A DNA stretch of 61,345 nucleotides from Candidatus Gastranaerophilales bacterium. Its GTDB lineage: Bacteria; Cyanobacteriota; Vampirovibrionia; Gastranaerophilales; Gastranaerophilaceae. Below are positions 19,717 to 25,399 of this stretch, piece by piece. A program made the translations under genes and the position numbers. Position 1 is the first letter of the stretch. Every line of letters starts with the position of its first letter. The stretch is from positions 1 to 61,345 of the forward strand of contig CALUPU010000010.1 in assembly GCA_944322725.1 (NCBI GenBank), given 5' to 3'. The notes under the pieces were generated by a model. It was not told the DNA's origin. It saw only the letters and a program-made list of their open reading frames with translations, and made no database searches.

Positions 19717-21903
19717 ATGCAGTTTTTGCTTTTTGGCATATCGTTTTTGATGGTTTTTACATCCTCGTACCTTATGGCATCATGTTTTTCGCCAAAAGAT
19801 GAAAACAACCGTCCTGTAAGCGTATACCCGTTTTTATATACGCTGCTGATTGTATTTGCACAGGCTGTATTGAGCATGGAACTTCTTTCTTTATTCAGCG
19901 CAATTAACTCCGTGAATTTTCTTGTAATAAATTTTCTCGTGCTGATTTTGAGTGCTTGCCTTTGGAACAAAAACAATCGCCCGTTGTATGTTCCAAAAAT
20001 CAAACAAACATTAAAAAAAATTCTCTATGCACTAAAAAGAGACAAAATCCTTATGCTTATGGCATTCGGATTTGTATTTTTTATAATAACTGCAATTGTC
20101 CTTGACATATTCCTGCCCGTAAACGGCGGAGATGCACTGACATATCACCTGAACAGAGCCTCTTTTTGGATGACACAGGGCAATCTCAATCACTTTGTGA
20201 TTTCCGATGACAGAAACCTTGTTATGCCGATAAACTCAGAGATTCTGTATTTGTGGAATCTGCTGTTTTTTAAAAATGACATCGGTTTATTTTTAGTATC
20301 ATTAACAGGTTTTGCAGGAATTATCTATTGTATTTACAATATTCTTGAGTATTTCGGCTTTACACAAAGAAGAATACTCTGGTCAATTTTTATCATGTCT
20401 TCTTTTGCCTCTGTAATGGCACAGGTATCAAGCCTTGAAACAGATGTGCTTATTGCGGGGCTTGTGCTTGCGTCCGTAACGCTGTTTTTGTATGCGTTAA
20501 AAGACAAAAAAAACAGTGCAATTTATTTTTCTTCTCTTGCCTATGCACTTGCAATCGGAACAAAATCTCCTGCAGTGATTGTTTTTCCGGGTGTATTTCT
20601 TCTTCTTGCATACTTTTCATACAGAAGTGAAAAAAAAGAATTTTATAAGCCTTTGCTGTCTTTTCTCGGATTTTTATTTTTAAACTTTATAATTTTTTCA
20701 AGCTATAACTATATCCTGAACTATATCGACTACAAAAACCCGCTCGGAAGCGAATCCGCAAGAGCAATCCACGGATTTCGAGGCGGAATCAAAGCTTTTA
20801 TCGCAAACTATATCCGCTACATCTTTATGATGTTTGACTTCTCGGGATTCAGATACAGCGAATACGTCGGAGAACATATACTAAATGCCAAATTTGCCTT
20901 ATTTGACCTTCTTCACATCCCTCATGAATGGGGCGTTGAAATGTCTGATGACAACCTTATCAACAACCGTTTTGTCAACGTAAAAGTCGGAACGGGTCTT
21001 TTGGGATTTCTGGTATTTTTACCGTCCGTAATTACCGCTTCGATTCTCGGATTCATAAAAAAATCAAACAAAAAAGTTTCTGCATTGCGTGCTTTTGGCT
21101 GGATGTTTTTTATAAACATTGCATGTCTGTCAGGTGCGCTTGCATATATGGTCTTCAGTGTAAGGTTTGTAACTTTTATAGTGATTTTGTCATGCCCTGT
21201 GCTGGCTCTGTCTTACATAAAAAAGACCAATATCATAAAGCTTTTGATTCTGTTTTTTGTAATGTCATATTTCCTTATTATGAGCGTAAATATGGCAGGA
21301 AGACAGCACATGGAAATTGCAAAAGTCATCCTGCAGTCCTCTTCAATACACCAAGCAAGAGAACACATAAGATGTGCACTTTATACGGGTTTTGATGGAA
21401 AACGACCTTTCTGTTATATAAAAGATTACATTGAAGAACTGCCCCGTGGTATCACAATCGGCGTATTTCCGAGTGCAAACGATGAATTTTACATAATAAA
21501 CATGCTAAATGCTCACGGTTACAGGCTTGAAACACTTCTGCCGGAAAAAGCACCAACATATAATCTGGACAAATATGATTATGTTATGACAACAAACAGA
21601 ATCCTTATAAGCACTGTGCTCCTCACCGATACAGAACACACAAAAGTCGAATATACGATAGATAAAAACGGCAATGCCTACTACCCTTCATACAGACCAT
21701 TTTCCTGCGTATATGAAACAACGGGAAAAGATTTTTACCACAAAGGAATGAAAGACGCGGTTGTCATGGATTCGAGGTGTTTTATTGATGTGCCGTTCTT
21801 TGAGCAAAAGGGGTTTGAACTAATTAAAGTATTTAATTTTGAATCAGTAATCAATGAACATGCCCGCTATGTCTCTATTTACAAAAATAAAAAGAAAAGT
21901 TAA
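19717..21903 (+). CDS. GT-C-fold membrane glycosyltransferase-like protein
   Basis: A 728-residue polytopic protein with roughly twelve hydrophobic helices in the first ~520 residues and a soluble C-terminal part of about 190 residues. The segment GGDALTYHLNRASFWMTQGN after the third to fourth helix fits the first extracytoplasmic loop of GT39-type enzymes, where an Asp acts as catalytic residue. NLVMPINSEIL continues that loop. Such enzymes transfer sugars from lipid-linked donors onto lipids or proteins outside the membrane. The acceptor is unknown. GGAG lies 8 nt before the ATG. It stands alone and is followed by the riboswitch-like RNA. Confidence 0.8.
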   Translation: MQFLLFGISFLMVFTSSYLMASCFSPKDENNRPVSVYPFLYTLLIVFAQAVLSMELLSLFSAINSVNFLVINFLVLILSACLWNKNNRPLYVPKIKQTLKKILYALKRDKILMLMAFGFVFFIITAIVLDIFLPVNGGDALTYHLNRASFWMTQGNLNHFVISDDRNLVMPINSEILYLWNLLFFKNDIGLFLVSLTGFAGIIYCIYNILEYFGFTQRRILWSIFIMSSFASVMAQVSSLETDVLIAGLVLASVTLFLYALKDKKNSAIYFSSLAYALAIGTKSPAVIVFPGVFLLLAYFSYRSEKKEFYKPLLSFLGFLFLNFIIFSSYNYILNYIDYKNPLGSESARAIHGFRGGIKAFIANYIRYIFMMFDFSGFRYSEYVGEHILNAKFALFDLLHIPHEWGVEMSDDNLINNRFVNVKVGTGLLGFLVFLPSVITASILGFIKKSNKKVSALRAFGWMFFINIACLSGALAYMVFSVRFVTFIVILSCPVLALSYIKKTNIIKLLILFFVMSYFLIMSVNMAGRQHMEIAKVILQSSSIHQAREHIRCALYTGFDGKRPFCYIKDYIEELPRGITIGVFPSANDEFYIINMLNAHGYRLETLLPEKAPTYNLDKYDYVMTTNRILISTVLLTDTEHTKVEYTIDKNGNAYYPSYRPFSCVYETTGKDFYHKGMKDAVVMDSRCFIDVPFFEQKGFELIKVFNFESVINEHARYVSIYKNKKKS

Positions 21904-21907
21904 ATTC

Positions 21908-22144
21908 ATGCCTGTTTAAATTGACAGTGATTTTTGTGAAAAGTAAAATTAATAAATGAAGGAAACGGGGTGAAACTCCTCGGCTGAGCCGCAGCCGTAT
22001 AGCCGGAACGCTTCTGGAGTCATTATTGGCTCAAAATATTACCATTGCTTCGGGCATCAGGCATGGGACTCATATTCCGGTTTACCGTTATATCCGTGTT
22101 CTTGTCCGACCAGCATAAAAGATAAGGAATTAAGAACAGGGATA
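21908..22144 (+). promoter_or_regulatory. Cobalamin-riboswitch-like leader RNA with a hairpin over the ribosome site
   Basis: GGAAACGGGGTGAAACTCC (21961-21979) followed by GCTGAGCCGCAGCCGTA (21983-21999) follows the cobalamin aptamer core GGAA..GGTGxAAxTCC..CTGxCCCGCAGCTGT, with one base of the CCCGC loop changed. CATGCCTG (21908-21915) is exactly complementary to CAGGCATG (22057-22064), giving an 8-bp closing helix in the right place. CCATTGCTTCGGGCATCAGG (22042-22061) resembles the CCACTG..GG arm. Downstream, TATCC-G-TGTTCTT (22091-22103) pairs with AAGAACA-G-GGATA (22132-22144): 12 bp around one G/G mismatch. This covers the AGGGA ribosome site of the next gene and is followed by T6. It could act as a terminator or a translation lock. 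The class is inferred; the helices are seen directly. Confidence 0.75.
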
Positions 22145-22153
22145 ATTTTTTAT

Positions 22154-22855
22154 ATGGCAGCAACCGTCGCAAAAGGCTCAAATAACAGAATAGGCACATG
22201 CCCGCACGGGCTTCCTATGGGTGCATGCCCTATCTGTAACGGCATGGGCGGAGGCGGAGGTGTCAAAAAAGACAACAAACCCCGTGAAATGACGTGGAAC
22301 GAGTGCTACGCAATAGGTCAAATGCTAAAAGCCCAAAAGCTTGCACGCCAGAACACGCAAAAAATGTTTGCTGCACAGGACTTAAACACATACCTCAACA
22401 GACTCCAAACACAAATAAATAATCTTAAACTCGCAGTTCTAAACTCCTTGCTGCCAAAACCCGCTGCCAAAGCTGTTGCACTGCTTGCAGACGCAGTTCT
22501 CATGCCTGCCGTCAAGCTTGTACAAACAATAACAAACACCCTTCAAACAGTTGTTTCTGCGATGACAAAGGCTGTTAACAACATAAAACAGTTCACTGCC
22601 GACATAATGGACAAACTCACGGCAATATTCGGCGAAGCAAAAGCAGCTATACAGAAAAAAATTGATGAAAAATTCAAAGATGTTAAAAAGAAAATCTTTA
22701 ATCTTTTTGGTATTTCAGAACCTGAAAACGAAGAAGACGAGGAAATAAAAAGGATTGAAGAAGAAAAAATGATGCAGGAAGAGCAGAAAATCTTTGAATC
22801 AGACCTAAGAGAACAAAGAATCCCCGTAAAAGAAACAATTGAAAGCGAAGAATAA
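22154..22855 (+). CDS. Unrecognised protein with CPHGLPMGACPIC motif, first gene behind the riboswitch
   Basis: A 233-residue protein that I cannot assign. The N-terminus has a cysteine/histidine cluster C-P-H-x6-C-P-I-C near residues 15-26, followed by a glycine run, suggesting a small metal-binding knob. Residues ~60-190 are predicted helical and amphipathic, with Leu/Ala/Val-rich stretches (LLPKPAAKAVALLADAVLM) but no clear transmembrane segment, and several Lys-rich turns. The tail of ~35 residues is very acidic. No signal peptide is present. The AGGGA ribosome site 11 nt upstream is inside the riboswitch hairpin. The stop overlaps the next ATG (TAATG), so it is coupled to the 497-residue membrane protein. 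Confidence 0.8.
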   Translation: MAATVAKGSNNRIGTCPHGLPMGACPICNGMGGGGGVKKDNKPREMTWNECYAIGQMLKAQKLARQNTQKMFAAQDLNTYLNRLQTQINNLKLAVLNSLLPKPAAKAVALLADAVLMPAVKLVQTITNTLQTVVSAMTKAVNNIKQFTADIMDKLTAIFGEAKAAIQKKIDEKFKDVKKKIFNLFGISEPENEEDEEIKRIEEEKMMQEEQKIFESDLREQRIPVKETIESEE

Positions 22856-24348
22856 TGAGCATCATAAAACCGTATCAAGACCTCGAAACCCAGCGCCAAT
22901 ACAGAAACCACACCCAAACGCAGAAAAAAAACATCTCGGAGATGAAAGAAGGCGTGGTAGTAAACACATTGATAAAAGACAAAGACTGCTGCCCGAATAT
23001 CGAAAGCATGTACGACAGCCTTGTCATACCTGACAAAACCGTTAAACCTGACAGCTTTGAAAGAATTGACTTTCATCACCGCACAAAAAAAGAAAAAACT
23101 TCTGATAAATCACTTGCACCGCTTCTGGGTACAACAATAGGTATATTCGGGGTTCTTGCAGGGATTACGGCACTTCTTTCCCGCGCAGCAACACACAAAA
23201 AAGTTCTGCCTGACTGGAAAACTCTTCCCGAAATCCCCAAAAACGTTGCAATCAACAGCGAACCTCACTTTGTCACATACCTTATGATAAGAGACCCTAA
23301 CATGAGAAATATTCTCGGTGCCGTGGGCGTATTTGTACTGAGTGCAGTCGGTTTAGCCGGCAAGAATTTTGTTGACGGTGTAAAAGAAATCTGGGTGCGC
23401 AAAAAACAGGCAGATGTACAAAGAGATTTGCAGGAAAAACTTATTGCAGTTGAAACACAGAGCTTCTCAGGAAAAATGCAAATATTAAGGAACATGCTTT
23501 CCGAAAAAGCAAGAGAACTGGATTCCATACTGCACAGAGAAAATATAGGTAATGAAAAAACTACATTCAAGAAGTTTATTTCGTTCAAAAAATCTGATGA
23601 ACAAACTCCTCAAAGAAAAAATCTCACGGGATATGCAGCAGTGGGACTGACTACGGCAGCAATAACGGCTCTCGGTTTTCTTGCCTTCAGAAACATACAA
23701 AAAACAGCAAAAGTCTATGAAAAATACGCAAAAGGCATGGAATCAAAGGTCAAAGAACTTGTGGACAAACAGCAGACATGGGATAAAGAGTGCCTTGATA
23801 AAGTAAAAAATATCTGTGTGTCTATGAACTATTCCTCACGCAAGATAGAAGAAACCTTCAAAGATGCAAAAAATCTGCCCGAAGGATTTGTTAATTTGGT
23901 TAAAAAAGAAGCGGAAAAAGTTACACAGGAAGGTGCGGAAGCAATTGCAGGCAAACCCGGGACAAAGCCTTCTTTATACTCTCACACCGATGATGACAGA
24001 GCGCATTTGTACAACATGATTGTTAACTGGGAAAATCCGCTTTTAAAAATTCTTTTTGCGGGGCTTTCCACAGTAACTGCAGTTGGTTATGCAGGCACAG
24101 CCGTTATAGAGGCAATTAAAGAAGCACAGGTCATAAAAGAAAATGCAAAAACAGAACTAGACCTTCAAAAACGCCTTGTAAACGTAGAAATGAATAACTT
24201 TGAATCAAAGAAAAGAAGCGTAATAGAGCCTATGATGAATGAATTCAGGGTTCAGGCAATGAACGGCAAAGACAAAAACGAACTCAAAACAAGAGCGGAA
24301 AATATTCTGTACGAAATCAAAAACGGTCCTCCGTTTGTATATTCATAA
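22855..24348 (+). CDS. Unrecognised membrane protein with an internal duplication
   Basis: A 497-residue protein. Four hydrophobic helices are seen near residues 85-107, 150-172, 262-281 and 395-418. The two halves look duplicated: each has a first helix, a loop, a second helix, then a long charged helix. The best match is LGAVGVFVLSAVGLAG..VKEI..DLQEKLIAVETQSF in the first half against LFAGLSTVTAVGYAG..IKEA..DLQKRLVNVEMNNF in the second. The N-terminal ~80 residues are soluble and include a Cys-Cys pair (DCCPN). No enzyme motif is visible. Translation is coupled to the upstream gene by a 1-nt overlap, and the downstream gene begins 9 nt after its stop. A membrane scaffold or transporter-like role is possible but unproven. 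Confidence 0.8.
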   Translation: MSIIKPYQDLETQRQYRNHTQTQKKNISEMKEGVVVNTLIKDKDCCPNIESMYDSLVIPDKTVKPDSFERIDFHHRTKKEKTSDKSLAPLLGTTIGIFGVLAGITALLSRAATHKKVLPDWKTLPEIPKNVAINSEPHFVTYLMIRDPNMRNILGAVGVFVLSAVGLAGKNFVDGVKEIWVRKKQADVQRDLQEKLIAVETQSFSGKMQILRNMLSEKARELDSILHRENIGNEKTTFKKFISFKKSDEQTPQRKNLTGYAAVGLTTAAITALGFLAFRNIQKTAKVYEKYAKGMESKVKELVDKQQTWDKECLDKVKNICVSMNYSSRKIEETFKDAKNLPEGFVNLVKKEAEKVTQEGAEAIAGKPGTKPSLYSHTDDDRAHLYNMIVNWENPLLKILFAGLSTVTAVGYAGTAVIEAIKEAQVIKENAKTELDLQKRLVNVEMNNFESKKRSVIEPMMNEFRVQAMNGKDKNELKTRAENILYEIKNGPPFVYS

Positions 24349-24357
24349 GGAGTTTCA

Positions 24358-24894
24358 ATGCATATTCTGCCAGTAACATTCAAACAGTTTAACATCACAC
24401 AATCCGTACCTGTACAAAAACCTGACACACAGTGCGAACTTGTGCAGGCATTTTGTGAAAATTTCAAACTGCCTGATGAACGGAAAAATCATGCACAGTT
24501 TGACGAATCACTTGTAAAAAAAATAGCCTCATACAAAGAACGTGCCGTCAAACCGGTTGTTGACATGCTTAAAACAGCACAAAGCGAAAAAGACATAACA
24601 GCAGGGCTGTTTTTGCTCAACAGAATCATTGACGCAGGAGCAAAAGGTGTGGAAAACACATATCCCGTAATCTCTCGTTTTAATTACAGCGAGTCTCACA
24701 ACGTACAGGTCATGCTTGCGGGAATTTACAGAAAAACACTTCTCCCGGACGCTTTCGGCCCGCTTGTTACAATGTTTATGAAAAACTCGCAAAAACCCGT
24801 TCAGATTCCTTTTGACCCTAACGAAGAAGTCGGAGGCGCAATACTTGAATATTTGAGAAGTAAAGCTTCCGTTAATAATTATTCAAAAAATTGA
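24358..24894 (+). CDS. Unrecognised soluble helical protein, third gene of the cassette
   Basis: A 178-residue protein without signal peptide or membrane helix. The N-terminus (LPVTFKQFN) is followed by predicted helices with a repeat-like feel (VVDMLKTAQSEKDITAGLFL, VMLAGIYRKTLLPDAFGPLV) that may form a small HEAT-like solenoid; this is a weak inference. AAGGAG lies 6 nt before the ATG, a strong ribosome site. It follows the membrane protein by 9 nt, so it belongs to the same transcript that starts behind the riboswitch. I know no family for it. Confidence 0.72.
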   Translation: MHILPVTFKQFNITQSVPVQKPDTQCELVQAFCENFKLPDERKNHAQFDESLVKKIASYKERAVKPVVDMLKTAQSEKDITAGLFLLNRIIDAGAKGVENTYPVISRFNYSESHNVQVMLAGIYRKTLLPDAFGPLVTMFMKNSQKPVQIPFDPNEEVGGAILEYLRSKASVNNYSKN

Positions 24895-24946: not shown

Positions 24947-25399
24947 ATGAGAAACTCTATGATAAATAAATTAAATAACATTTCATTCAAAAGCGCATTT
25001 GTAAACAGAGACCTTGAAAATAAACTGAGCCGGGAAAACTATGAAAAGGTCAATCTGGCTGCAAATATGGTAGATGAACTATATTCTCAGACGGATGTGT
25101 TCTTTTATTCCGACAAAAACGGTAATGTGGCTTACGCTGTCCAAAAAGGCGACCCATGCAGATTAATGCTTCAATCGGAAATATTGAAAAAACTCAAAAT
25201 GAATGCCCAAGAAATGGTAGACCTGATTAACCTCAAAACATATCTGGAATGTGCTCATAATGAAATATGGGGAATAAAAAAACCTTTTATTGAGGGAAAA
25301 ATAGAAAATATTGATGAAATGGATGAATTTGACCTTGCCTGTGAAGTAAACAGCACCATCAGGCTCTTTAACAAAATTCAAGAAGAAACTCTTAACTAA
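24947..25399 (+). CDS. Unrecognised small protein with NISFKSAF N-terminus
   Basis: A 150-residue soluble protein, acidic and mostly helical. Two in-frame ATG codons at 24947 and 24959 are possible and neither has a good ribosome site; the second gives an N-terminus MINKLNNISFKSAF that looks like other small proteins of this lineage. It includes a beta-like stretch FFYSDKNGNVAYAVQKGD and a C-terminal helix. It lies 52 nt after the third cassette gene and could be the fourth member or separately expressed. Function is unknown. Confidence 0.6.
   Translation: MRNSMINKLNNISFKSAFVNRDLENKLSRENYEKVNLAANMVDELYSQTDVFFYSDKNGNVAYAVQKGDPCRLMLQSEILKKLKMNAQEMVDLINLKTYLECAHNEIWGIKKPFIEGKIENIDEMDEFDLACEVNSTIRLFNKIQEETLN

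Follow-up and report, generated by a model that had tools for sequence, protein, structure and literature searches.

The window studied here is a stretch of 61,345 nt from a Candidatus Gastranaerophilales bacterium (contig CALUPU010000010.1 of assembly GCA_944322725.1), i.e., one contig of a 1.9-Mb genome that is 96% complete (hereafter G000). On its forward strand, comparisons with relatives show that a predicted cobalamin riboswitch of the adenosylcobalamin-II (AdoCbl-II) type, with its own promoter-like sequence, heads an operon of three genes, P1 (22154-22855), P2 (22855-24348) and P3 (24358-24894), collectively termed the cassette, which is kept as one unit throughout the order Gastranaerophilales. 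This kind of riboswitch is already known; what is new is the unrecognised, order-wide operon under its control. As a whole, the best explanation, to which we give slightly better than even chances, is that an AdoCbl-II switch heads a conserved operon repressed by AdoCbl and devoted to the acquisition of vitamin B12 (cobalamin). Gastranaerophilales are common uncultured gut bacteria, forming a non-photosynthetic, cyanobacteria-related order, and they appear to require B12 (most have the AdoCbl-dependent ribonucleotide reductase NrdJ), have no synthesis genes that we could find and mostly lack the importer BtuCDF. The cassette is a specific, testable three-gene candidate for B12 import without BtuCDF, a task whose membrane proteins have been named as an open question (PMC6072759). 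Our literature search found no paper on cobalamin riboswitches of Gastranaerophilales or Melainabacteria.

The comparisons drew on 191 genomes of the host family, 240 genomes of the class (for P2) and 80 named loci, the relatives in the named collection being mostly “Candidatus Gastranaerophilales bacterium” or Melainabacteria metagenome-assembled genomes. The aptamer core lies at 21946-22020, where RF01689 (AdoCbl-II, clan CL00101) matches significantly with 35.0 bits (E-value 9.2e-7, search of the 351 nt from 21850 to 22200), yet 1.5 bits short of the curated gathering threshold of 36.5 bits; at gathering threshold, an Rfam scan of the entire window returned no match, and RF00174 had none in G000. 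This shortfall is what could be said for a degenerate or chance resemblance to an aptamer, but a covariance model (R1) trained solely on leaders from outside the window's genus, as a guard against circularity, recognises 21955-22018 with 65.3 bits (E-value 4.5e-17), which places the RNA far above chance. Within the family, RF01689 matches were obtained in 176 of the 191 genomes (146 above the curated cut-off), and most of the relatives' RNAs in front of the cassette score above the gathering threshold. The GGAA / GGTGAAA / TCC core and the CTG-loop-CAG arm, on which an initial annotation of the window had partly based its proposal of a cobalamin riboswitch, are both present where it had placed them. 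In addition to the core sequence, the window RNA shares with RF01689 the helices P3 and P4 and their spacing.

Covariation in the relatives argues for the same structure. In the window, the aptamer helices are P3 (21959-21961 with 22011-22013), P4 (21966-21970 with 21978-21982) and P5 (21983-21985 with 22001-22003), the latter closed by loop L5 (GAGC, 21986-21989), which is complementary to loop L13 (GCTT, 22047-22050) of a P13-like hairpin at 22042-22066, as in a kissing loop. Across 56 leaders, 97.2% of the cells of helices P3, P4 and P5 are paired (20-52% in slid controls), and both partners have changed in 92 cells, compared with 29.5 on average in shuffles. The variable position of the L5-L13 contact is Watson-Crick in 42 of 47 sequences (shuffled mean 22, maximum 36 in 10000 shuffles), AGC facing GCU in 21 sequences and UGC facing GCA in 21 others, with both pairings found in several genera. 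Since related sequences are not independent, such counts overstate the number of events. Taken with the fixed position of the RNA, this conservation in effect refutes the chance reading, which we regard as extremely improbable, and it is nearly certain that the leader is an AdoCbl-II-type cobalamin riboswitch, ligand binding being predicted from its sequence. The covariance models, the covariation, the kissing loop and the canonical B12 targets of the same RNA in the lineage (see below) all uphold the initial identification.

The RNA and the cassette stay together throughout the order. Among the best 150 RNA hits in the family, 110 are followed, at 58-238 nt and in the same orientation, by a P1 homologue, while in the named Gastranaerophilales loci the aptamer core lies 62-203 nt 5' of P1 in 80 cases out of 80, and the order P1-P2-P3, with overlapping or closely spaced genes, is kept in 77 of them. 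The three genes also follow one another in this order in 19 genomes of a sample of 21; P3 was not recognised in the other two, and the P1 family is present in 167 of the 191 family genomes. The cassette is an order-wide, single-copy unit made of three families for which no relatives were found elsewhere, and the one order-wide operon under an AdoCbl-II switch. Hence, the linkage of the RNA to genes of non-B12 families, initially reported for the window, is fixed across the order, and the small helical third gene (24358-24894) is part of the operon.

Directly 5' of the aptamer stands a sigma-70-type promoter-like sequence (21921-21949), composed of TTGACA (21921-21926), a spacer of 17 bp and TAAAAT (21944-21949); in the 20 nearest relatives, TTGACA-17-TANAAT precedes the aptamer at a near-constant distance. 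An exact 8-bp closing helix (21908-21915 with 22057-22064), originally included in the RNA, had to be rejected as a chance pairing: the complement is missing in 20 of the 20 nearest relatives, and its 5' arm, which lies upstream of the conserved promoter-like sequence, is unlikely to be transcribed together with the aptamer. On the 3' side, the minimum-free-energy fold yields a putative expression platform (22091-22144), i.e., a hairpin (22091-22107 with 22126-22144) that would bury the Shine-Dalgarno-like AGGGA (22138-22142) before the ATG at 22154. Both this hairpin and that of L13 fall outside the 81-nt RF01689 model. In other genera, an analogous TCCTCT...AGAGGA-U(5-7)-ATG hairpin, with its U-tract directly 5' of the start codon, is observed in 45 of the 80 loci under a strict pattern, and since the 5' strand of helix P3 of the aptamer bears the same AGAGGA there, a switch is suggested in which TCCTCT would pair alternately with either AGAGGA. 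Translation control would be the simplest reading of the modelled platform, with transcription termination at the U-tract as a possible mode.

Cobalamin riboswitches normally repress uptake, synthesis or B12-independent isozymes, i.e., functions needed at low AdoCbl, and both nrdDG and btuBCDF are canonical targets. In our genomes, 20 second copies of the RNA were examined: 16 are followed by nrdD-nrdG (anaerobic ribonucleotide reductase) and two by an operon encoding a TonB receptor, a FecCD permease, an ABC ATPase and a Peripla_BP_2 protein (btuB-C-D-F); one, on a short contig of genus g18, has BtuC as the next called gene, and the last one (69 bits, L091:4668-5059 of G012) precedes a 94-aa open reading frame (ORF) of no recognised function. 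A fuller example from genus g18 (L209) has the btu operon directly 3' of the RNA. In G006 (L065:6077-6343), nrdDG and the cassette are divergent and each has its own copy, so that two riboswitches stand back to back on opposite strands of a single 385-bp intergenic region. The nrdD leader of G000 itself (L223:2517-2601, contig C8) carries an AdoCbl-II core as well (E-value 2.5e-5 with the held-out model), with a hairpin inserted in the loop of helix P4 (GUGAAA), instead of which its congeners G043 and G181 have about 63-67 nt inserted after CCGU.

These targets bear on the identity of the ligand. RF01689 is one of the class-II-like cobalamin RNAs, a group in which aquo- or methylcobalamin is sometimes the preferred ligand, and there are cassette genomes without the adenosyltransferase BtuR; the switch could thus respond to another corrinoid form than AdoCbl, whichever role the operon has. 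Nevertheless, the same RNA governs nrdDG alongside the AdoCbl-dependent NrdJ, which makes AdoCbl the logical signal, and we consider another ligand unlikely. When AdoCbl is plentiful, the aptamer would bind it and L5 would kiss L13; in the bound state, the downstream hairpin would bury the ribosome-binding site and/or terminate transcription at the U-tract, turning the operon off, whereas scarce AdoCbl would leave it on. That the riboswitch represses P1-P2-P3 when B12 is sufficient is very probable.

The products of the operon resemble no known B12 protein. As first annotated, the three ORFs belong to no recognised family: P1-P3 have no match in Pfam, NCBIfam, PHROGs, PADLOC or PDB families, PDB profile searches with each of them returned nothing significant, and no enzyme domain was detected in them by Pfam and other family searches. 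P1 (233 aa) begins with an invariant Cys/His cluster, CPHGLP-x3-CPxC (C16, H18, C25, C28) plus C51, and continues as an amphipathic, helical protein. P2 (497 aa) has no invariant Cys, an invariant C-terminal KNG.P.VYS and an internal tandem duplication (hhalign probability 96%, E-value 3e-9). Family-averaged hydropathy recovers the four hydrophobic segments of what had been called a four-helix membrane protein (approximately 90-108, 152-170, 260-278 and 400-418), their insertion into the membrane being a prediction. No convincing match to P2 was found outside the order among the 240 class genomes. P3 (178 aa), with its highly conserved YRK..PDAFGPL and FDPNEEIGGAI, is confidently modelled as helical (predicted local distance difference test, pLDDT, of 86.5) and is predicted to form a HEAT/ARM-like repeat: its best VIA-align score against HEAT/ARM repeats is Z 12.8 (root-mean-square deviation 5.7 over 152 residues), although values below about 13 are common for helical repeats, and Foldseek gave no match to P3 with an E-value under 0.001. 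Weak matches to pAdhesive_17, Cob_adeno_trans (E-value 0.042) and phage tail proteins were discarded, as they were below cut-offs and typical of helical or low-complexity matches, while a Foldseek search with the low-confidence model of P2 was meaningless.

The B12 economy of these genomes suggests what the operon may do. G000 encodes NrdJ (C8:38172) and two BtuR adenosyltransferases (C26:7132-7653 and C1:307434-307961). A query joining NrdD to E. coli CobT, CobU and CobS detected NrdD in G000 and found CobT/CobU/CobS in none of 42 Gastranaerophilales genomes versus four of six class outsiders, an absence that is probable but not proven, because a single-sequence query has limited sensitivity. 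Judging from gene content, Gastranaerophilales appear unable to make B12. As for uptake, G000 lacks FecCD (BtuC), which was found in only 11 of the 78 genomes searched, and EcfT/CbiQ (PF02361) is found in none of the 34 genomes searched, G000 included. NrdJ and the cassette tend to occur together: the cassette is carried by 50 of the 51 genomes that encode NrdJ, compared with 13 of the 27 that lack it (78 genomes; Fisher p 2e-7, in a test uncorrected for phylogeny, which is a first reservation about the acquisition reading). Among NrdJ genomes without BtuC, 46 of 47 carry the cassette, and only seven of 63 cassette genomes have BtuC. Conversely, genus g18 has a riboswitch-controlled btuBCDF and no cassette, whereas group g26 and the genomes G016, G077 and G185 have neither cassette, RNA nor NrdJ and, where tested, neither BtuR nor BtuC.

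Two side observations concern the adenosyltransferases. Many family members have two BtuR-type genes per genome, which are neighbours neither of each other nor of other B12 genes, and the BtuR neighbourhoods, considered as possible cobalamin biosynthesis clusters, contained only housekeeping genes. No PduO-type adenosyltransferase matched above cut-off in 48 genomes.

Acquisition is our leading hypothesis because P1-P3 have no enzyme domain, because the cassette is the order-wide target of the switch and because it occurs in apparent auxotrophs that lack BtuC or an energy-coupling factor (ECF) transporter. We put the chances that P1-P2-P3 is the Gastranaerophilales' own B12 (corrinoid) acquisition system at even. 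Under this reading, P2 with its internal two-fold repeat would sit in the membrane, with P1 as a Cys/His partner that binds a metal or a corrinoid and P3 as a HEAT-like adaptor; the three together would stand in for BtuCDF, which is lacking in most of these apparent B12 auxotrophs. The main rival of acquisition is a B12-repressed operon without a role in uptake, e.g., an envelope or intracellular scaffold, a B12 store, a corrinoid chaperone or a B12-sparing process switched on at low AdoCbl. The absence of transporter homology in P1-P3, the adaptor-like helical repeat of P3 the Cys/His cluster and amphipathic helix of P1 and the persistence of the cassette in genomes with neither NrdJ nor BtuR would all suit it; moreover, B12 switches also govern non-transport genes, such as nrdDG here. 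On the other hand, no enzyme domain makes the cassette a B12-independent isozyme, and the NrdJ-dependent apparent auxotrophs devoid of BtuC or EcfT would be left without a known importer, even though the cassette is the only operon that this switch heads across the whole order. We deem a non-uptake role a serious candidate, somewhat less likely than not. The “B12-controlled envelope system” of the initial annotation falls under it: control by B12 has good support, but the envelope part is backed by no family of Pfam, NCBIfam, PHROGs or PADLOC, and acquisition is favoured because NrdJ and BtuR are present, while no synthesis genes were detected and BtuC and EcfT are missing.

Several further points weigh against acquisition. 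The cassette persists in 13 genomes without NrdJ, and BtuR is missing too from those of them that were tested, which leaves their use of B12 in doubt. Seven genomes combine the cassette with a FecCD permease, and G080 of genus g17, a 99% complete genome, encodes NrdJ along with two BtuR yet shows no AdoCbl-II match, no cassette and no FecCD/BtuC. At the protein level, P1-P3 match no known or B12-binding protein, the AlphaFold model of P2 is poor (pLDDT 61) and its hydrophobic segments are G/A-rich. Finally, acquisition by P1-P3 leaves the outer-membrane step unexplained, and there is no direct link of these proteins to corrinoids.

The known importers differ from the cassette in several ways. 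Genus g18 and part of g38 have BtuB-BtuCDF behind this RNA, where shut-off at plentiful B12 would likewise be expected, but none of its components (TonB receptor, FecCD permease, ABC ATPase and Peripla_BP_2 protein) is encoded in the cassette, as P1-P3 have no Pfam match. An ECF-type importer is at variance with the lack of EcfT in the 34 genomes tested. Another parallel is the cobalamin importer BtuM, whose role was originally predicted from genome context in Gram-negatives without BtuCDF (PMC6072759), bacteria for which the cassette, too, is a candidate importer. Its Cys80 recalls C16, C25, C28 and C51 of P1 as an invariant Cys that could ligate cobalt, yet BtuM is a single protein of about 22 kDa with six helices, as opposed to three proteins of which P2 has four hydrophobic segments, and no sequence similarity was found. 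The nrdDG operon shares with the cassette the RNA and the genomes, that of the window included, but encodes a B12-independent isozyme, whereas P1-P3 have no enzyme domain; nor is the operon that the RNA heads in the window a known B12 operon. Our most specific proposal, somewhat more doubtful than acquisition as such, is that P1-P2-P3 may be an undescribed machine for acquiring B12 (corrinoids), specific to Gastranaerophilales, with no relationship to BtuCDF, ECF or BtuM and shut by AdoCbl through a class-II-like riboswitch.

Two neighbours of the cassette were noted as well. On its 5' side, the window encodes a 728-aa glycosyltransferase-like membrane protein (19717-21903, weak PMT_2), of which L062 has two tandem copies. 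On its 3' side lies a 150-aa ORF (24947-25399), shared in our sample only with the window's genus, which has the N-terminal motif ISFKSAF; short N-terminal motifs of this sort seem recurrent in uncharacterised proteins of the order.

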